Shown here: positions 506-9,565 of the stretch, piece by piece
Position numbering within the stretch: the stretch's first letter is position 1
Layout: every line of letters starts with the position of its first letter
Source: Georgenia thermotolerans
GTDB taxonomy: Bacteria > Actinomycetota > Actinomycetes > Actinomycetales > Actinomycetaceae
Length of the DNA: 64,000 bases
Assembly: GCF_009193185.1 (NCBI RefSeq)
Contig: NZ_VUKF01000006.1
Coordinates: 62,001-126,000 of the forward strand
Direction: 5' to 3'
Notes under the pieces: model-generated
The model's database searches: none
The model's input: only the letters and a program-made list of their open reading frames with translations
What the model was told of the DNA's origin: nothing
Translations under genes and position numbers: made by a program

Positions 506-616
506 TTGGGCCCCGCGGCCGGACGGGCCTGGGTCCGGCACCGCGGCGGCCGGGCGGGGTTGGGCCCGGCGTTGGGCCCGTGGGCCCCACGGTTCCGCCG
601 CCGCGCTTCCTAGCGT
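506..616 (+). promoter_or_regulatory. Composite promoter/operator of the Flp pilin operon (copy 1)
   Basis: Positions 561-591 read TGGGCCC-N5-TGGGCCC-N2-GGGCCCCACG, followed after 17 nt by CCTAGCGT (609-616), a plausible -10. An extra TTGGGCCC lies at 506-513. The same arrangement with the same spacing occurs at 6348-6403 before the other class III-signal gene; the 31-bp cores match at 26 positions. Activator or repressor is undetermined. Confidence 0.7.
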
Positions 617-676
617 GAGGGCTGTCGGGGCGAGCCGTCCGGCTCGACCACCCAGGCAGCAGATGAAGGAGCAGAC

Positions 677-880
677 ATGTCCACCCGACTCTACGTGCGG
701 GCCAAGGTCCGCCTGCAGGAGCTGCTCGACCGCCGCGAGGCCGGTCAGGGCACCCTCGAGTACCTCGGCGTCGTCGTCATCGTCGCGATTCTCGTCGTCG
801 CGGCGGTCACCGCGTTCAACAGCTTCAACCTCGGCGAGAAGATCACGACCCAGCTCGACAAGATCGGCAACGCCGGCTGA
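677..880 (+). CDS. Flp-type pilin (class III prepilin)
   Basis: 67-aa precursor of a Flp/Tad pilus subunit. A basic N-terminal leader ends at Gly23, followed by QGTLEY, so the mature protein would start at Gln24 with Glu at +5 and Tyr at +6, the Flp hallmark for TadV/CpaA prepilin peptidase. One hydrophobic helix (VVVIVAILVVAAV) follows, then a short polar tail. The mature pilin would be about 44 aa. The ATG has a good ribosome site (AAGGAG at 665-670). First gene of an operon with the TadG-like gene. The Tad secretion ATPase and peptidase are not in the window and may lie upstream. Length and motif fit the family well. Confidence 0.92.
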   Translation: MSTRLYVRAKVRLQELLDRREAGQGTLEYLGVVVIVAILVVAAVTAFNSFNLGEKITTQLDKIGNAG

Positions 881-886
881 CACCCT

Positions 887-939
887 CGGCGGCCGCGGCC
901 GCCGCGCCATGGACGCGAGGAGGCGCCGCAGGGGGGGGG
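887..939 (+). repeat. Intercistronic GC hairpin and G9 homopolymer
   Basis: Right after the pilin stop, 887-904 is a perfect 18-nt palindrome of GGC/GCC triplets, which could stabilise the pilin message or attenuate read-through. A run of nine G follows at 931-939. An ATG at 909 is in frame with the TadG-like gene and would be translated through the G run. Confidence 0.55.
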
Positions 940-1004
940 CGCCGCCTTCGGTGCGCACCGCGCGGCGGGCAGGACCGGGCCACGCCCGGCAGGAGGGAAG
1001 CACA

Positions 1005-1670
1005 GTGCTCGACGTCGTCCGGCGCCGCCTCGGCGGCCGGGTCGCCGACCGCGGTGCCGCGACGGCGGGCCTGATCCTGCTGGGCGCGTTCGGCGCGCTG
1101 GCGCTCGTCTTCCTCGCCGTTCTGCCCCTGCTCAGCGGCACCGAGCAGAGCGCGCGGGCGCAGACGGCCGCCGACGCCGCCGCCCTGGGCGGCGCCGAGC
1201 ACCTGCGTGACCACCTCCTGCGGGGCGTGGTCTCGCTCCGACCGGGCGACAGCCTGCTCGACCTCCTGCCGGGCACCACCGGCGACGCGACGGCGGCCGC
1301 GACCATGGCCGGCCGCAACGGCGCCACCCTCCGCGAGTACGACCGGTCCGGCCGCCGGGTGGAGGTCCGGGTGCGCCTGAACGAGCCGGGCGCCGCCGGC
1401 ACCAGCCCCGTCGAGGCCCGGGCGGTCGCCCAGCTCGGGCGGAACGGGCTCAACCTGGGCGCGTGCCGGCTCGCCGAGGAGGACCCGGAGCCGACTCCGA
1501 CGCCCTCGCCGACCCCTGAGGGCGAGGAGCCGACGCCGGAGCCGGCGCCCACGCTCTTCACGTTCACCTGCGCCGGCGTCCTGAGCTGGCAGGGCGAGGA
1601 CCTCACGGACCTCGCCGGTGCCCTCCGCGACGCGCTCCGCGAACCCCTCCGGCCCCGCCTCGTCGCGTGA
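1005..1670 (+). CDS. TadG/TadE-like Flp pilus-associated membrane protein
   Basis: 221-aa protein with an N-terminal RGAATAGLI segment and a single transmembrane helix (about residues 20-45, LILLGAFGALALVFLAVLPLL), then QSARAQTAADAAALGGAE, typical of actinobacterial TadG-related proteins. Unlike the pilin it has no Glu at +5, so it is probably not processed. The exported part has a Pro/Thr/Glu-rich stretch (EPTPTPSPTPEG) near residues 160-190. The GTG at 1005 was chosen because AGGAGGG (991-997) precedes it; an in-frame ATG at 909 would add 32 Arg-rich residues. Cotranscribed with the pilin; likely role in pilus anchoring or assembly. Confidence 0.75.
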   Translation: MLDVVRRRLGGRVADRGAATAGLILLGAFGALALVFLAVLPLLSGTEQSARAQTAADAAALGGAEHLRDHLLRGVVSLRPGDSLLDLLPGTTGDATAAATMAGRNGATLREYDRSGRRVEVRVRLNEPGAAGTSPVEARAVAQLGRNGLNLGACRLAEEDPEPTPTPSPTPEGEEPTPEPAPTLFTFTCAGVLSWQGEDLTDLAGALRDALREPLRPRLVA

Positions 1671-1744
1671 GCGGCCCGGGCACGCCCGCCCCGCACCGGC
1701 TTTAATCGGACTTGTCCGGACAGAACCACTCGAAGGGATCGTCC

Positions 1745-2824
1745 ATGGAGATCGGGCCCCACCGCCGCCGCGCCGTGCGCGCGGCGGGTCTTGGCGTCGG
1801 CCTCGCCGTGCTGGCCGCCGGCCTGCCCGCGACCGCGCAGACCTCGGCGCCGGCCGACGAGCTCGGCTCCCCGGAGATCCCGGTGCGGGCGACGTTCAGC
1901 TACCCGTCGTTCTTCCTCGCCGCGAACCCCGAGGTGACCGGCGCCGTGCACGGCGTCAGGCGCGTCGACGGCGGGACGGCCGTCTACTTCTCGGTCGGGG
2001 TGGCCGAGGGACAGGCCGAGCACTTCGCCGGCACGACCGCGTTCGAGCCGGCCCCCTCGCCCTACCGGCTCAACGACGTCGCCAACCTCGCCCTCGTCGA
2101 CACGAGCACCCTGACGGCCTACCGGCCGCTGCACGGCGACGTCGCCCTCACCTCGAGCACCATCGGCATGGAGGGCGAGCCCGGTCAGCTCGTCACGTTC
2201 TTCGCGGTGTTCCCCGAGCTGCCGGCGGCCACCACCTCCGTCGACCTGCAGTTCGAGTGGGGCGTCACCGCCTCCAGCGTGCCGGTCGAGGACGGGCCGC
2301 TGGAGCCGGCGGTCGACGAGTCGTTCACGATCCTCGGGGAGGGATGGCCGAAGCTGCCCTCGGCCGACCAGATCGCTGCCGCCGACCCCGCCGCCGTCAC
2401 CTTCGACCTGGTGGCCCGCAGCGAGGACCAGGCCGGGACGGCCGCCGTGGCGGAGAGCCCCGACCAGGTCGAGGTGACCTTCGACGCCGACGTCCTCTTC
2501 GCCGTCGACTCCGCGGAGGTCTCGGCCGAGGCACGGGCCCGCGTGGAGGAGATCGCCCGCGACATCGCCGACCGCGGCGTGGGCGAGGTCGCCGTGACCG
2601 GGCACACCGACTCCGTGCGGGGCGCGGTGGACAACCAGGCCCTCTCGGAGCAGCGGGCCCAGGCCGTCGCCGACCTGCTCGCCCCGGTCGTCCAGGACGC
2701 CGGCGTCACCCTCGCGGTCGCCGGCCGGGGGCCGTCCGAGCCCGTGGCCGACAACTCCACCGAGGAGGGCCGCGCGGCCAACCGCCGGGTCACGGTGGTC
2801 TACCAGGTGAGCGAGGAGCGATGA
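1745..2824 (+). CDS. Secreted OmpA-domain protein
   Basis: 359-aa exported protein. The signal peptide spans about residues 1-33 (basic start, then [17 protein letters not shown]). A central beta-rich domain (about 45-215) resembles nothing I can name. The C-terminal ~115 residues are an OmpA/MotB-type peptidoglycan-binding domain: [15 protein letters not shown], the TGHTDSVRG loop, [13 protein letters not shown], then [10 protein letters not shown]. In a single-membrane organism this domain would hold the protein to peptidoglycan. Start: ATG at 1745 after GAAGGGA; a TTG 33 nt upstream is in frame but would put acidic/polar residues ahead of the signal. Overlaps the next gene by ATGA. Location suggests a cell-wall partner of the pilus module (inference). 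Confidence 0.85.
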
Positions 2825-3447
2825 GGATGCGACGGGTCGTCACGGGTGTGGCCGCGGTGCTGCTGCTGGCAGGCTGCAGCGAGTCCGCCGACGCGGACGG
2901 CGGCGCCGGCACGGCGCGCCCGACGGCCGGCCAGACACCCGAGCGCACGGCCGAGGAGGTCACCGAGGCGATCTTCGGCGCCGCCGGCGCCGCGGAGCCG
3001 ATCGCGGAGGCCGAGGGCGAGATCCTCGACAACGGCTCGGGCCGTACACCCGCCCGCATCACGGTCGAGGCCGTCACCGCCGGCCCGGAGAGCACGCTCC
3101 TGCGCTTCACCCTCTACGCCACCAGCGGGGAGGAGTCGGTGTCGCTGCAGGCCTTCAACGCCCTCACCCCGCTCACGGCGGACATCCGGGACGTGAAGAT
3201 CGGCGACCCGGCGTCCGGCACGACCTACGCGCCCTACCTCGGGTACGAGACCGCCGAGGAGAAGGACGAGGCCTCCTTCTGCCTGTGCTCGACGCACCCG
3301 AAGACCATCGACACCGACGGGGTGCACCTGTACGCGACGTACCCGGCGCTCGACCCCTCGGCGGAGACCGCGACGGTGTACGTGCCGGGCTTCCCGGAGC
3401 TCGAGGACGTCCCGGTCACCCGGACCGGGGAGCAGGGCGGGAAGTGA
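2821..3447 (+). CDS. Putative lipoprotein
   Basis: 208-aa predicted lipoprotein. The signal peptide ends in the lipobox LLLAGC (Cys about residue 19), followed by a Ser/Asp/Gly linker. The mature part is acidic and beta-rich, with a CLCS motif in its C-terminal half. I recognise no enzyme family. It starts on the ATG that overlaps the OmpA gene's stop (ATGA), so the two are probably translationally coupled and act together at the envelope. Confidence 0.8.
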
Positions 3448-3491
3448 CGCCCGGCGCACGGACGCCCGGCGCCGGGAGCTCGTCCGCCGCC

Positions 3492-3497
3492 TATCCT
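3492..3497 (+). promoter_or_regulatory. Probable -10 (TATCCT) of leaderless guaA transcript
   Basis: TATCCT ends 6 nt before the guaA GTG and no ribosome site is present, fitting a transcript that begins at or within a base of the start codon. Confidence 0.5.
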
Positions 3498-3503
3498 TGC
3501 CCG

Positions 3504-5120
3504 GTGAGCACCTCAGACCAGACCCGGCCCACGACCACCGAGCCCGAGGCGCCCGCCGGCACCGAGCGTCCCGTGCTCGTCGTCGACTACGGCGCCCAGT
3601 ACGCCCAGCTGATCGCCCGGCGCGTGCGCGAGGCGCGCGTGTACTCCGAGATCGTCCCGCACACGATGAGCGTGGACGACATGCTCGCCAAGGACCCCGC
3701 GGCGATCATCCTCTCCGGCGGCCCGGCGTCGGTGTACGCCGACGACGCCCCGGGCACCGACCCCGCGCTGTTCGAGGCCGGGGTGCCGGTGCTCGGCATC
3801 TGCTACGGCTTCCAGTCCATGGCGCGCGCGCTCGGAGGGCGGGTGGCCCAGACGGGCTCGCGCGAGTACGGCTCCACCGTGGTCCAGCTGCAGCAGGCCG
3901 GCGAGCTCCTCGCCGGCTCGCCCACCCAGCAGACGGTGTGGATGTCCCACGGCGACGCCGTCCAGGCCGCCCCCGAGGGCTTCCAGGTGCTGGCCACCTC
4001 CGAGGGGTCCCCGGTCGCGGCCTTCGAGGACCCCGACCGGCGCCTCTACGGCATGCAGTGGCACCCCGAGGTCAAGCACTCGGTGCTCGGCCAGGAGGCC
4101 CTCGAGCGCTTCCTCTACGACGGCGCCCGGCTGGAGCCCACCTGGACGCCCGGCAACGTCATCGCCGAGCAGGTCGAGGCCATCCGCGCCCAGGTCGGCA
4201 AGGACCGGGTGATCTGCGGGCTGTCCGGCGGCGTGGACTCCTCGGTGGCCGCCGCGCTCGTCCACCGGGCCGTGGGGGACCAGCTCACCTGCGTCTTCGT
4301 CGACCACGGGCTGCTGCGCGCCGGCGAGGCCGAGCAGGTCGAGAAGGACTTCGTCGCCGCCACCGGCGTCAACCTCAAGGTGGTCGACGCCTCGCAGACC
4401 TTCCTCGAGGCCCTCGAGGGCGTCACCGACCCCGAGACCAAGCGCAAGATCATCGGCCGGGAGTTCATCCGCGCCTTCGAGCACGCCGCCCGCGAGATCG
4501 TCGCCGAGGCCGGCGACAGCGACGGCGACGTGAAGTACCTCGTCCAGGGCACCCTCTACCCCGACGTCGTCGAGTCCGGCGGCGGCGAGGGCGCGGCGAA
4601 CATCAAGTCCCACCACAACGTCGGCGGGCTGCCCGAGGACCTGCAGTTCGAGCTGGTCGAGCCGCTGCGCACGCTGTTCAAGGACGAGGTCCGCGCCGTC
4701 GGCCTCGAGCTCGGCGTGCCCGAGCAGATCGTCTGGCGCCAGCCCTTCCCCGGCCCCGGCCTGGGCATCCGCATCATCGGCGAGGTCACCGCCGAGCGGC
4801 TGGAGATCCTGCGGGCGGCCGACGCCATCGCCCGCGAGGAGCTGAGCAAGGCCGGGCTGGACCGCGACATCTGGCAGTGCCCGGTGGTCCTGCTCGCCGA
4901 CGTCCGCTCCGTCGGGGTCCAGGGCGACGGGCGCACCTACGGCCACCCCGTGGTGCTGCGCCCGGTCTCCTCCGAGGACGCCATGACGGCCGACTGGTCC
5001 CGGGTGCCCTACGACGTGCTGGCCACCATCTCCACGCGGATCACCAACTCCGTCCCGGAGGTCAACCGGGTGGTCCTCGACGTCACGTCCAAGCCCCCCG
5101 CCACCATCGAGTGGGAGTGA
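3504..5120 (+). CDS. guaA: GMP synthase (glutamine-hydrolysing)
   Basis: 538-aa enzyme converting XMP, ATP and glutamine to GMP. The class I glutamine amidotransferase domain (about 23-210) has the nucleophile Cys100 in GICYGFQ and the His187/Glu189 pair in QWHPEV. The ATP-pyrophosphatase domain starts with the PP-loop SGGVDSS (241-247). The C-terminal dimerisation domain carries [11 protein letters not shown] and ends in KPPATIEWE, as in the family. The GTG at 3504 was chosen for the -10 seven bases upstream and because upstream in-frame codons run into the lipoprotein gene. Shares a GTGA overlap with the downstream glycosyltransferase, an unusual partner for guaA. All catalytic motifs intact. 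Confidence 0.98.
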
Positions 5121-6328
5121 GCCCCCTCCGCGTCGCCCACGTCTCCGACTGCTACCCGCCGCGGGTCGGCGGGATCGAGACCCAGGTCCACGACCTCGCG
5201 GTGCGGCAGGCCCGCGCCGGCCACGACGTCCACGTGCTCACCGCCACGGGGGCGGCGGCGGCCGGCGTCGGCCACCCGGGCGTCGGCGGCCGCGGCGCAC
5301 CCGGCGGGCCGGGCACGCCCACGGTGCACCGGCTGGCCACGCCGCTGACCCTCGGGGTGCCCGTGCACCCGCTGGAGGGGCCGCTGTTGCGCCGGGCCCT
5401 GCGCGCGCTGCGGCCCGACGTCGTGCACGTGCACGCCGGGGTGGTCTCCCCGTTCGCCTTCGCCGGCGCCCGGGCGGCCCGCCGCCTCGGCGTGCCGCTG
5501 GCGATCACGTGGCACTGCATGCTCGACGGCGTCGTGCCGCTGTACCGGGCCGGCGCCGCGCTGAGCGGGTGGCGCCGCGCCGCCGTCGCCCTCTCCGCGG
5601 TCTCGGCCGTGGCGGGGGAGCGGGTGGCGCGCGTGCTCGCCGTCGACCCGGCCGACGTCCTCGTCGTGCCCAACGGGCTGGACGTCGCCGCCTGGGCCGA
5701 CCCCTCGCCCCCCGGCGCGCCGCTGCCGCCCGCGGGCCCGCTGCGGGTGGTCGCCACGCAGCGGCTGGCCCCGCGCAAGCGCCCGGTGCCGCTGGTGCGG
5801 CTCGTCGCCGAGGCGCACCAGCGGCTGGGGCGCGACGACGCCGGCCGCCCCCGTCTCCACCTGACCCTCATCGGCTCCGGGCCCGCCGAGCAGGCCGTGC
5901 GGGCCGAGGTCGCCCGCCGCGGCCTCGGCGACGTCGTCGACGTCGTCGGCCGCGTGCCGCGGGAGGAGCTGGCGGGCCGGTACCGGGGCGAGCACGTGTT
6001 CCTCGCCCCGGCGCGCCTGGAGGCCTTCGGCATCGCGGCCCTCGAGGCGCGCGCCGCCGGCCTCGCCGTCGTCGCCGGGCGCGGCACCGGGGTCAGCGAG
6101 TTCGTCCGCGACGGCGTGGACGGGCTGCTCACCCCCGACCGGGCCGACGGGCTCGACGACGGCGACGCCGACGCCGCGCTCGCCGCCGCGCTGGTGCGGC
6201 TGGCCCGCGAGGACGGCCTCCTCGCCGGGCTGCTCGACCACAACCGGCGCGTCGCCCCCGCCGCGGACTGGGCCGACGTCCTCGGCGCCGCGGACGCCCT
6301 CTACGCCCGCGCCCGCGCCCGGCGCTGA
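5117..6328 (+). CDS. GT4-family glycosyltransferase
   Basis: 403-aa GT-B fold retaining glycosyltransferase. The N-terminal acceptor domain begins [19 protein letters not shown], the glycine-rich loop of GT4 enzymes. The C-terminal nucleotide-sugar domain has [16 protein letters not shown] and the E-x7-E motif ([15 protein letters not shown]). No signal peptide or membrane helix, so it is cytosolic or membrane-associated. Start is the GTG overlapping the guaA stop. Substrate unknown: it could act in capsule, glycolipid or mycothiol-like synthesis; MshA-type function is not supported by anything specific I can see. Confidence 0.9.
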
Positions 6329-6347
6329 CCTCAGGCCCGGGCCCAGG

Positions 6348-6403
6348 TGGGCCCTCCCTTGGGCCCACGGGCCCCACGACCCGTCCGTAATCGCCCCTAG
6401 CGT
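6348..6403 (+). promoter_or_regulatory. Composite promoter/operator of the second pilin-type operon (copy 2)
   Basis: Positions 6348-6378 read TGGGCCC-N5-TGGGCCC-N2-GGGCCCCACG and CCTAGCGT follows after 17 nt (6396-6403). Motif order and every spacer length equal copy 1 at 561-616. TAGCGT would be the -10. It lies just after the glycosyltransferase stop and 36 nt before the 478-aa gene. Confidence 0.7.
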
Positions 6404-6438: not shown

Positions 6439-7875
6439 ATGAGGGCGCTGCTGCGGGAGCGCGAGCGGGGTGCTGCGACGCTGGAGCACCTCGGCACCGT
6501 GGTCATCGTCGTGCTCCTGTTCGGCGGGGCCGTCCTCGGGTTCGCCACCTACGGACCGCGGCTGCAGCAGCAGCTGTGCGTGCTGGCGAGCGCGGTCGGG
6601 GTGGCCGGTCCCTGCGAGGGGACGCCGGTGGCCCAGCCGGAGGAGAGCGGGCCCACGGACGCGGACTTCCTGCCCGCCGTGTGCACGATCCGGGAGTCGA
6701 CCACCCAGACCAACGCCAAGATCACCATCGCCTTCCTCGAGATCGGCCAGGACGCCGGGTTCATCGTCCAGGAGAACGCCGACGGCACCGTCCAGGTGAC
6801 GGTGACGGACGGCGCGAGCCTGGGGGCCTCCGGCGGCTTCGGGGCCAGCCTGGGCGGGAAGGACTCCGGGATCGGCGGGGACGTGTCCTTCGGCGCGGGG
6901 CTGAGCTTCAAGAACGGCTCGCAGTGGAACTTCGCCAGCATGGACGACTGGACGGCCATGGAGAAGGACCTCAAGGCCTACCTGATCCAGCAGAAGCAGC
7001 TGCAGGGGGAGGGCGCGGTCGGGATGCACCTGTACCTCCTGCTCACCGACGGCTACCTCGACAAGCCCCAGGAGCCCGAGCAGACCTCCTGGACCCAGGC
7101 CATCGAGATCTCCGGGAACGGGAAGATCGGCCTGCGCGACACGATCCCGGGCAAGGACGGCGCCGAGCCGCAGGACATCGACCCCAACCTGGGGGTGTAC
7201 GTGGACGGCAAGCTCGCCGACGAGTACGTCGTCACGGAGAACCACAAGACCGGCGAGACGTCGCGGACGTACTCCTTCACCGCCTCGGGGGAGGCCGGCG
7301 GGAACCTCGTCGTCGGGAACGCCTCCGCCTGGGGCGAGCAGAAGGGCGCGTACAAGATCACCGAGAACAAGGACGGCGAGGTCATCTCCATCGAGTTCAT
7401 GGCCGAGCGCGCCGGCGGCAGCAAGGCCGGCCTCGGCGTCCAGCCCGTCACCGACCAGGGCGGCAGCGCGGGGATGACCGACGCCGCGAACACCCGCACG
7501 GTGGTCACGACGACGATCGAGGTCACCGACGCCAACCGCCACATCGTCGAGGACTGGGTCACGGCGGCCGACTCGAACGCCTCCTTCGGGCTGCCGGTGC
7601 CCGTGCCCGCCAACTCCCAGCGGCCCGACAGCCCCGTCGCGGACGACGCGTTCGCCAACCTCCTCTACCAGGAGGGTCGGACCAGCGAGCGGGTCTACGA
7701 CAACGTCGAGGAGGGCTGGTCCTTCGGGGCCGAGTTCGCCCTGGGCATCAAGCTCGGCGCCAGCTTCGGCAGCGAGGAGAAGACAGCGACCATCCAGGAC
7801 GCCAGCTTCCTCGGCGCCCCCGGGCAGGACGGCGTGCGCCCGATGGTCCCCGAGTCCGCCTGCACCGTTGACTGA
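6439..7875 (+). CDS. Large surface protein with class III prepilin-type signal
   Basis: 478-aa protein of unknown function. The N-terminus ERG-AATLEHLG followed by a hydrophobic helix (TVVIVVLLFGGAVLGFA) fits a class III prepilin signal: cleavage after Gly11 gives Glu at +5 and His at +6. The remaining ~430 residues are exported, Gly/Ser/Asp-rich and predicted beta-rich, with repeated FGASLG/FGAGLS-like glycine segments near 135-160 and again near the end (FGAEFALGIKLGASFG). Four cysteines (47, 59, 82, 475) could form disulfides. Far too long for a Flp pilin. ATG at 6439 follows GGGGGAGA. First gene of a three-gene operon under a promoter matching that of the Flp pilin. Could be a minor pilin, adhesin or secreted effector tethered by a pilin-like stem. 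Confidence 0.8.
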   Translation: MRALLRERERGAATLEHLGTVVIVVLLFGGAVLGFATYGPRLQQQLCVLASAVGVAGPCEGTPVAQPEESGPTDADFLPAVCTIRESTTQTNAKITIAFLEIGQDAGFIVQENADGTVQVTVTDGASLGASGGFGASLGGKDSGIGGDVSFGAGLSFKNGSQWNFASMDDWTAMEKDLKAYLIQQKQLQGEGAVGMHLYLLLTDGYLDKPQEPEQTSWTQAIEISGNGKIGLRDTIPGKDGAEPQDIDPNLGVYVDGKLADEYVVTENHKTGETSRTYSFTASGEAGGNLVVGNASAWGEQKGAYKITENKDGEVISIEFMAERAGGSKAGLGVQPVTDQGGSAGMTDAANTRTVVTTTIEVTDANRHIVEDWVTAADSNASFGLPVPVPANSQRPDSPVADDAFANLLYQEGRTSERVYDNVEEGWSFGAEFALGIKLGASFGSEEKTATIQDASFLGAPGQDGVRPMVPESACTVD

Positions 7876-7885
7876 GGAGCACCCG

Positions 7886-8317
7886 ATGACGCTGCGGAAC
7901 TACGTGCGGCCCTGGATCGCCGCGGCCCTGACCTGGGCAGTCGTCGTGCTGCTGAGCAAGCTGCTCTACGGCGCCCTGCTCGGCGCCGGGGACGTGCGAC
8001 CGGTCGTGCTCATGGGCCTGGCGACGGTCGTGGCGCTCCCGGTGCTCAGCGCCGCCGTCGCCGTGCTGCTGCTCCCGGTGCCGACCACGCGCCGCCCGGC
8101 GGCCTGGCTGCTCGCCGGGGTGCCGGTGACGGTGGCGGCGCTCGCGGTCTCCGGGCTGGCCGTGGACGCGCCCACGGGGCCCGGCGTGGGGGCGCTGGCG
8201 GCTGTGGTGGCCCTCGCAGCGGGAGCGTCGCTCGGCGTGGGATGGTTGCGGGCGCGGCGCGCGGGCACGGCCCGGCGGTCCGCGCGGGTGGCCCGCACCG
8301 GCTACGAGGCACGATGA
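7886..8317 (+). CDS. Four-helix integral membrane protein of unknown function
   Basis: 143-aa protein with four predicted membrane helices (about residues 10-30, 40-65, 72-95 and 102-122) and a short basic C-terminal tail (RARRAGTARRSARVAR). No recognised domain. ATG at 7886 has GAGGAG at 7874-7879. Starts 10 nt after the 478-aa gene and overlaps or abuts the next lipoprotein gene, so it is the middle gene of that operon. Possible membrane partner of the surface protein (inference). Confidence 0.75.
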   Translation: MTLRNYVRPWIAAALTWAVVVLLSKLLYGALLGAGDVRPVVLMGLATVVALPVLSAAVAVLLLPVPTTRRPAAWLLAGVPVTVAALAVSGLAVDAPTGPGVGALAAVVALAAGASLGVGWLRARRAGTARRSARVARTGYEAR

Positions 8318-8334
8318 CTGAGGAGAAGCGGCGG

Positions 8335-8853
8335 ATGGCAGGCAAGGTGGCACGGGCGGTGGCCGCGGCGGTGGGAGCCGGGGCGCTGCTCGCCGGGTGC
8401 GCGTCGGGGACGCCGGACGGGTTCACCCGGCTCGAGCAGGGCTGGCTCGCGGTGGACGTGCCCGAGACCCTCGTCGAGGTGCCCGAGGCCGAGTCCGGCG
8501 CGTACGACGTCGTGCTGCAGGACGCGGTGGAGGACCCGAAGGTCCAGCTGGCCGCGGCCACGGAGTACGGGACCAACCCCGCCCGCGGCACCCTGAGCGC
8601 GGTGCGGGCCGAGCAGCCCTTCGGGCCCGTCGACGACGGCGACAAGTTCTCCGAGGTCGAGGGCCGCGGCGGGCAGCAGCTGTGGCGCTGGGACTTCACC
8701 TACGACGACGGCGGCTACCACGGCGTGACCTGGGTGGCGCACGACCCCGACGCCGAGCGCACCGTCGTCGTCGCGCTCAGCGCCGTCGAGCTGGACGACG
8801 CGACGGTGCAGGCCGTCGAGGACAGCATCGAGGTGCGCCCGCAGGACTCCTGA
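8335..8853 (+). CDS. Putative lipoprotein
   Basis: 172-aa lipoprotein: short basic n-region, hydrophobic stretch and lipobox LLAGC (Cys about residue 21). The mature protein looks like a single compact alpha/beta domain (WLAVDVPETLVEVP ... VVVALSAVELDDATVQAVEDSI), resembling small actinobacterial substrate-monitoring lipoproteins, but I cannot name a family. Start: ATG at 8335 preceded by AGGAG (8320-8324). An alternative ATG at 8314 overlaps the previous stop (ATGA) and would add MTEEKRR. Last gene of the operon. Confidence 0.75.
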   Translation: MAGKVARAVAAAVGAGALLAGCASGTPDGFTRLEQGWLAVDVPETLVEVPEAESGAYDVVLQDAVEDPKVQLAAATEYGTNPARGTLSAVRAEQPFGPVDDGDKFSEVEGRGGQQLWRWDFTYDDGGYHGVTWVAHDPDAERTVVVALSAVELDDATVQAVEDSIEVRPQDS

Positions 8854-8880: not shown

Positions 8881-8956
8881 GGGACCAAGGTCGCGCCCAG
8901 GACCTTGGGCCCCGGGACCAACGTCGCGAAACGCGTGGACATGGCGGATCTACGTT
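8881..8956 (+). promoter_or_regulatory. Two DosR/DevR-like boxes and promoter before the 9056 gene
   Basis: CGGGACCAAGGTCGCG (8880-8895) and CGGGACCAACGTCGCG (8913-8928) are near-identical direct repeats 33 bp apart, resembling the DosR palindrome GGGACTWWAGTCCC. The downstream box ends about 22 nt before a candidate -10, TACGTT (8951-8956). An inverted repeat CCAAGGTC-N8-GACCTTGG (8885-8908) overlaps the first box. Confidence 0.5.
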
Positions 8957-9055: not shown

Positions 9056-9565
9056 ATGAACACCAAGCCCGCCAAGGTCACCGGGATCGTCGCCATCGTC
9101 GCCGGGATCGTCTTCATCCTCGCCGGCGGGGTGACGTGGGGGTTGATCACCTCCAACCTCGTCGAGCAGAAGATCGTGGTCGCGGAGGACTCGACGATGC
9201 TGCCCGGGGACGAGGTCAACGGCCCGTTCTCGGCGTTCGCCGAGGCGCAGATCATCAACGAGCACGCGATGCACGCCACCGAGGGCAAGACGTACGCCGA
9301 GCTGGGCGCGGAGGTCAAGGCCGCCGAGGCGGCCGGGGACACCGCGAAGGCGGAGGCGCTGCAGGGGCAGCGGACCACGGTGATGAACGCCTCGTTCCTG
9401 CGGGCCTCGCTGTTCACCTCGGTGATCGCCTACGGTGTGGCCGCCCTGGTCATGGGGCTGGGCGTGATCCTGACCCTGGTCGGCTGGGCCTTCACCACCC
9501 TCGCCGCCCCGTCCGGCGCCGTGGCCGCCACCAAGGCGGGGCGGCGCGAGGCGGCGCTGGTCTGA
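9056..9565 (+). CDS. Two-helix membrane protein (family often mislabelled LigA)
   Basis: 169-aa protein with one N-terminal membrane helix (about 8-32, VTGIVAIVAGIVFILAGGVTWG), an external domain containing EHAMHATEGKTYAEL, and a C-terminal segment with two hydrophobic stretches (about 115-150). This is an actinobacterial membrane family that databases often call aromatic ring-opening dioxygenase LigA; nothing here supports a dioxygenase. ATG follows GAAAGGA. Monocistronic, with DosR-like boxes upstream and a strong terminator downstream. Function unknown; the boxes suggest response to low oxygen, redox or stress (inference). Confidence 0.8.
   Translation: MNTKPAKVTGIVAIVAGIVFILAGGVTWGLITSNLVEQKIVVAEDSTMLPGDEVNGPFSAFAEAQIINEHAMHATEGKTYAELGAEVKAAEAAGDTAKAEALQGQRTTVMNASFLRASLFTSVIAYGVAALVMGLGVILTLVGWAFTTLAAPSGAVAATKAGRREAALV

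Follow-up and report, generated by a model that had tools for sequence, protein, structure and literature searches.

Two pilin-signal operons of Georgenia thermotolerans share a rare composite site, a probable target of the response regulator encoded in the tad locus

NarL sites of the 7-2-7 type are pairs of heptamers 2 bp apart to which a LuxR-type helix binds, and the DosR box is of GGGACT type. Two-component control embedded in a locus for Tad (type IVc, Flp) pili is known from PprA-PprB of Pseudomonas aeruginosa, where the flp-rcp-tad region contains the genes for both the kinase and the regulator; PprB is described as a positive and direct regulator of Flp pili, together with surface factors encoded elsewhere (PMC3510237, PMC6821963). 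A palindromic box of 6-2-6 layout is also known, as the binding site of OsdR (PMC5069765). Flp pili serve DNA uptake in Micrococcus luteus (PMC4322843, PMC8467076). Here we analysed a stretch of 64,000 nucleotides from Georgenia thermotolerans (contig NZ_VUKF01000006.1, positions 62,001 to 126,000; hereafter the window), in which one composite site stands upstream of the flp pilin gene and of a distant operon for a 478-aa protein with a class III pilin signal. The two copies are probably operator-promoters of one small Tad pilus regulon that the response regulator of the tad locus activates. Among the matches listed in our literature searches, none named this operator or a tad-locus regulator that controls flp in actinobacteria; judged by these matches, the operator is new, as are its two versions and its range.

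The composite site TGGGCCC-N5-TGGGCCC-N2-GGGCCCCACG-N17-CCTAGCGT is present letter-perfect at 561-616 and at 6348-6403, both on the plus strand, as are the promoter elements and the genes of the two operons given below. In the flp promoter, an upstream direct half-site TGGGCCC (561-567) lies 12 bp before the putative operator dyad TGGGCCC-GT-GGGCCC (573-587; centre between 580 and 581), and a −10-like TAGCGT (611-616), which fits TANNNT, follows 23 bp after the dyad. The flp gene (677-880) encodes a 67-aa Flp-type pilin, recognized by its class III signal and by HMM search, with no Pfam family at the cut-off. The second promoter consists of the same parts, the half-site TGGGCCC (6348-6354), the putative dyad TGGGCCC-AC-GGGCCC (6360-6374) and a −10-like TAGCGT (6398-6403), before the gene for the 478-aa protein (6439-7875). 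An earlier note on this DNA had described such a composite with equal spacers before two pilin-type operons, and its description was correct: the two cores agree at 26 of 31 positions, guaA (GATase and GMP_synt_C) and a GT4-type glycosyltransferase gene lie between them, and each downstream gene starts with a class III pilin-type signal. Over the full 56 bp the copies agree at 38 positions, and the next best place in the window agrees with the composite at 34 of 56. Duplication of the whole upstream region was ruled out, as the flanks of the two copies are unlike.

In the whole genome of 4,638,305 bases, GGGCCCCACG-N17-CCTAGCGT with up to three mismatches was found at 11 places: two are exact (561-616 and 6348-6403), one has two mismatches and eight have three. 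A wider pattern, TGGGCCC-N2-GGGCCC-N23-TANNNT, was found at 47 places with up to three mismatches, and exactly only at the same two. The many unrelated copies against which the earlier note had warned were thus not seen, there being no further exact copy in 4.64 Mb, and the composite is kept in relatives before the same kinds of genes. Its proposal of a common DNA-binding regulator behind both copies gains support from this rarity and conservation, as far as a comparison of sequences can tell.

For this regulator a candidate is encoded close by. Within the 8 kb that precede the window are tad genes for RcpC/CpaB, a TadZ-like protein, TadA, a TadB-like protein, TadC, a kinase and a regulator. 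Parts of a Tad (type IVc) locus were identified by Pfam as T2SSE (TadA), T2SSF (TadC), RcpC and AAA_31 with a receiver-like part; the TadZ-like protein has a TadE-like stretch, and the TadB-like open reading frame (ORF) was called by eye only. The regulator is a complete 229-aa protein (L012:15801-16490) with Response_reg (72.4 bits) and GerE (69.6 bits) domains, both above the Pfam cut-off. Its gene begins 200 bp before the window, continues with its 3' part at 1-490 and is the last gene before flp. A histidine kinase gene with HisKA_3 and HATPase_c domains (L012:14636-15808) overlaps it. A receiver followed by a GerE/LuxR-type helix-turn-helix (HTH), with an adjoining histidine kinase gene, marks the regulator as NarL/FixJ-type; against NarL's own family model it scored far below the cut-off (131.7 versus 250 bits).

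The two-component genes sit inside the tad locus, as do those of PprAB, and several differences from that system were noted. PprAB belongs to another phylum, and the putative PprB site GGCTAATAC (PMC6821963) is unlike the dyad and finds no match at 561-616 or 6348-6403. PprAB is described as also controlling pilus machinery genes, whereas here the site was found only at flp and the second operon. A term search for a PprB binding consensus in the searchable text of PMC3510237 found none.

Conservation was examined first within the genus, by searching nine genomes for the composite with up to two mismatches. G000 and G002 (Georgenia ruanii) hold both sites. The second site of Georgenia ruanii has one mismatch, and its spacer between half-site and dyad is shorter by one base; its core is kept although the sequence before it cannot be aligned with that of G000. 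One further place with two mismatches was found in G000, and none in the other seven genomes, five of which gave no flp match at E <= 1e-6. In G004 and G008 of the same genus, flp is present with another version of both the dyad and the recognition helix of the regulator.

The same sister version prevails in the family. A search for pilin-domain genes in 213 genomes of the family gave matches in 31 genomes, and the dyad GGGGCG-N2-CGCCCC was found upstream of 22 of the 27 short flp genes, the GGGCCC form upstream of two and neither upstream of three. With both versions counted, a dyad agreeing at 10 or more of 12 positions precedes 24 of the 27 flp genes (mean of resamples, 4.9) and 20 of the 31 other pilin-domain genes (6.1). 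With 11 or more positions required, 18 of the 27 flp genes (mean of resamples, 0.4) and 18 of the 31 others (0.7) remain. Control windows farther upstream held such 11/12 dyads in 1 of 78 (flp) and 4 of 93 (other genes), 5 of 171 in total. Chance, or a GC-rich repeat, was ruled out as the source of the two sites by the unique exact pair, the gene context and these counts against resamples.

When DNA pattern alone was scanned in the 213 genomes, GGGGCGNNCGCCCCT-N23-TA with up to one mismatch gave 135 places in 71 genomes. Of the 18 exact GGGGCG-type boxes, 15 lie within 12 kb of a pilin-domain gene; one of the three remaining boxes (in G011) precedes a lipoprotein-like gene, of which the G179 relative also has an exact site. 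At six GGGGCG-type sites that were examined, some 10 kb ahead of flp, the gene that follows is DUF192-like, which Pfam confirmed for one of the six. At least five of these genes are followed by a prepilin-peptidase-like gene, a label given by eye.

At the level of order and class, the GGGCCC composite with TAGNGT was scanned as a DNA pattern only, with up to three mismatches. The order scan, over 396 genomes, gave 11 places in seven genomes (reversed control, 3). Of the nine non-self places, five precede flp, two precede long pilin-domain genes and two precede accessory genes, for a lipoprotein-like and a membrane protein, in genomes whose flp lies 12 and 14 kb away. The class scan, over 296 genomes, gave 12 places in nine genomes (reversed control, 4), three of them already counted. 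Among the nine new ones, four precede flp, one precedes the gene for a 476-aa homologue of the 478-aa protein, two precede genes for related proteins with an internal class III signal, one precedes that for a membrane protein distantly like those, and one, at L222, lies in a coding region and was set aside as chance. Together the two scans gave 18 new sites, 14 directly before Flp-type pilin-domain genes, two before accessory genes, one ambiguous (L228) and one coding. The 476-aa homologue, from another order, is 32% identical over 440 columns and has its own site, and flp there also has one.

Loci were also collected by protein rather than by DNA, which gave 20 flp loci from other families of the order; the three GGGCCC loci of the family were added to them. 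In 18 of these 23 loci (15 of the 20 from other families), none of 300 resamples attained the leave-one-out score for dyad and −10 combined; the rows are not independent and include the near-copy pairs G000/G002, G399/G325 and G344/G435. When 23 sequences were scanned with a matrix of half-site and dyad, trained without the genome scanned (here without G000 and G002), the matrix recovered both sites of the window with scores of 24.1 (flp) and 23.2 (second promoter), and found further sites at lipoprotein-like and long pilin-domain genes.

These distributions bear on whether the repeats are a site for a protein at all. GGGCCC palindromes might form hairpins or terminators, or be left over from a duplication in which they were copied with a pilin gene. 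A terminator-like GGGCCC-rich inverted repeat does occur before G021:C1:2964923, and a duplication could have carried the promoter along with the pilin signal that the two downstream genes share. The likeness of the copies, however, ends at the edges of the 56 bp; the sister lineage keeps the layout and the distance to TANNNT with a different half-site and a variable distance to the gene; and a site of its own accompanies the 476-aa homologue of another order. We regard a structural or duplicative origin as very improbable.

Dyad and regulator gene occur together. Every one of the family's 24 flp genes that a LuxR-type regulator gene immediately precedes has a dyad of at least 10/12, and none of the remaining three, which lack an adjacent regulator gene (G129, G028 and the second flp of G170), has one. 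For G129 and G028, a motif scan of the surrounding 18 kb detected no LuxR-type regulator. The version of the dyad also matches the recognition helix of the adjacent regulator, in the family as in the order: the helix reads xKTVKN(H; N in G345) at GGGCCC loci (21 rows with a regulator in reach) and RTVKN(Y; N in G181) at GGGGCG loci (22 rows). In a tree of the 43 regulators, the two versions form the two sides of one branch (support 99/96), which indicates one change and not many. G000 and G002 have regulators that cluster with one from another family, apart from those of G004 and G008 of their own genus. The flp loci of G129, G028, G243 and G278 and the second of G170, which had no regulator gene within reach, were left out of the tree (for G278, a regulator was seen farther up), and the dyad labels were assigned by hand for each locus, G450 and G345 being poor examples.

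By alignment to DevR (3c3w), the helix K-T-V-K-N covers positions Lys179, Lys182 and Asn183, which are described as the base contacts of DosR (PMC4082495). The two versions differ at position 179 (K or R), and position 184 is mostly H or Y. The earlier note had named the NarL-type regulator ending at 490 as the nearest candidate, and this candidacy is strengthened by its tad and kinase context, by the co-occurrence with the dyad and by the match of helix and half-site.

Another regulator of the NarL family, of the DosR/DevR/OsdR type that responds to hypoxia, could bind here, the tad-locus regulator then acting elsewhere. The tad-locus regulator is of the same structural family as DosR/DevR and OsdR, a DevR chain is its second best solved relative, and DosR-like GGGACC boxes lie nearby, from 8881. 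The 16-nt OsdR palindrome of Streptomyces, AGGGCCGATCGGCCCT, has the same 6-2-6 layout and differs from GGGCCC by one base per half (PMC5069765). The halves nevertheless are GGGCCC here and GGGGCG in the sister loci, as against GGGCCG-NN-CGGCCC as given for OsdR; the composite adds a direct half-site at 12 bp and a distance of 23-24 bp to TANNNT; and the sites found precede pilin-domain genes rather than universal stress protein genes. The dyad moreover co-occurs with the adjacent regulator gene in the counts above and its version matches the helix of that regulator, and the lack of any further exact site in the genome fits ill with a wide stress regulon. We judge another regulator unlikely. 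From NarL 7-2-7 sites the dyad differs in sequence and in targets.

As to the architecture of the promoter, both versions are 6-2-6 dyads, and TANNNT lies 23 or 24 bp past the dyad in 29 of 40 GGGGCG and 17 of 23 GGGCCC cases; over offsets from 10 to 44, there was one other TANNNT match in each set, at offsets 42 and 25. The commonest offset of the upstream half-site is 12 in both versions (20 of 40 GGGGCG and 17 of 23 GGGCCC dyads). The distance from dyad to TANNNT is kept while that from dyad to gene varies, and GTC occurs 7 nt after the −10 element in 28 of the 63 promoters listed. In the flp promoter of the window this GTC, which recurs in many flp promoters, is at 624-626, near a predicted start at about 623. 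No −35 element was recognizable by eye. Since the −10 element is placed at −12 to −7, the centre of the dyad falls at about −42.5, which would be the position of a class II activator, and if TAGCGT is the −10 element, this position makes an activator likelier than a repressor.

Repression was weighed on the same evidence. The regulator might keep flp and the 478-aa operon off until a signal arrives, as the sites overlap the place of the −35 element and a bound dimer could block RNA polymerase there. A centre near −42.5 without a visible −35 element is, however, a trait of class II activation, the mostly 23-24 bp to the −10 element would be needless for a repressor, and in the analogous system PprB is described as activating flp (PMC3510237). 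Repression seems to us quite unlikely.

Activation of both promoters by the tad-locus regulator as a class II activator is preferred because it needs the fewest assumptions. On receipt of a signal, the kinase would phosphorylate the NarL/FixJ-type regulator, a dimer of which would bind the 6-2-6 dyad (T)GGGCCC-N2-GGGCCC, whose centre would lie near −42.5, with a further molecule or dimer using the direct half-site 12 bp upstream. The bound regulator would replace the −35 contact and recruit RNA polymerase to TAGCGT, so that flp and its accessory genes would be switched on in step with the 478-aa operon beyond guaA. In the sister lineage, the same layout would operate with GGGGCG halves and a recognition helix altered accordingly.

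Several observations weigh against this interpretation. Reversed control patterns were commoner than the loose forms of the site in the whole genome, at 17 versus 11 places for GGGCCCCACG-N17-CCTAGCGT and at 64 versus 47 for TGGGCCC-N2-GGGCCC-N23-TANNNT, and in the genus at 10 versus 5; the 135 places of GGGGCGNNCGCCCCT-N23-TA likewise are fewer than those of its reversed control, by hand count. By the genome-wide counts, the exact site is unique to the pair and the loose pattern is without enrichment. The tad operon of Georgenia thermotolerans, searched in the region before it, has no such site. In the family, 11 of 31 other pilin-domain genes lack a 10/12 dyad, and about 5 of 27 would have one by chance. 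For five of the 23 flp loci, resamples did attain the score (0.007 in G325 and G286, 0.017 in G345, 0.023 in G237 and 0.29 in G338), and at the G215 and G377 loci the matrix scan gave no place at all. The reported spacings are favoured by the method, the dyads having been picked with the −10 element in the score (spacer 20-27 or fixed at 23). The flp genes without a regulator number only three, the second of G170 being judged on 475 bp upstream. The regulator gene and the flp promoter are adjacent and would be co-inherited in any case, and the tree needs just one change of version.

The 478-aa protein (6439-7875) is 92% identical to its homologue in Georgenia ruanii JCM 15130 and has relatives in other families and in another order. 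It is predicted, by one model only, to form a long-stranded beta-barrel like the translocators of autotransporters, which would be odd for an actinobacterium. Among the members scanned, this family of pilin-signal proteins had no Pfam or NCBIfam match. A wider proposal, tentative and in our view rather doubtful, is that actinobacteria across the class share a Tad regulon with an operator code of its own, through which the tad-embedded regulator would launch the Flp fibre together with the pilin-signal barrel. A monoderm would then use its pilus machine to deliver a barrel resembling a porin or an autotransporter to the cell wall or past it, and helix and half-site would have changed together at least once.

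The analysis yields a searchable operator, a candidate regulator, a list of target genes and a class II promoter layout, and with them a testable rule for how these actinobacteria may switch on Tad pili. It also ties this family of pilin-signal proteins to the pilus. Two natural specificity versions within one regulator family make DNA recognition by the LuxR-type helix open to experiment.

The flp gene is followed by genes for a TadE/G-like protein (1005-1670; Pfam Tad E 0.018, below the cut-off), an OmpA-domain protein (1745-2824; Pfam) and a lipoprotein-like protein (2821-3447; by eye, with no Pfam family), the last two likely belonging to the flp operon. That an OmpA-domain protein is encoded after flp in an actinobacterium was noted in its own right. 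The second operon continues with genes for a small membrane protein (7886-8317) and a lipoprotein-like protein (8314-8853), both assigned by eye and without a family. The first 57 nt of the predicted flp leader (623-679) can fold into a GC-rich hairpin of −18.8 kcal/mol, and the flp leaders of relatives often start with GTCA. The DosR-like boxes of GGGACC type at about 8881-8925 are GGGACCAAGGTC, GGACCTTGG and GGGACCAACGTC, before an ORF at 9056, and an exact GGGACCAAGGTCCC was found at G000:C36:17453, before an HTH-regulator-like gene. Tandem repeats of about 19 bp, GAGATGACGTCTCGCGACC-like, lie before the tad operon (L012, about 7490-7680).

In the wider sample, the proteins of L226:2-1444 (−) and L227:2-1402 (−) are large and combine hydrophobic stretches at the N terminus with a Gly-rich linker and a class III pilin signal in the interior; they are 50% identical to each other over 202 residues, and a composite site lies upstream of each. 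The gene at L202:15383-16474 (−), which comes after a lipoprotein-like gene that has a composite site, encodes a pilin-type signal fused to an SGNH-type hydrolase-like part (YVALGDSYSSG), as judged by eye. At L119, L120 and L121, near 1500-1560, the DUF192-like gene begins 1-2 bases from the predicted transcription start, and its transcript would therefore be leaderless. An identical 40-bp sequence, GGGGCGAACGCCCCAACCTCCTTAGCAGGGAGGCGCACTA, recurs in 13 genomes of three genera that gave no flp matches, for example at G030:C3:271731.

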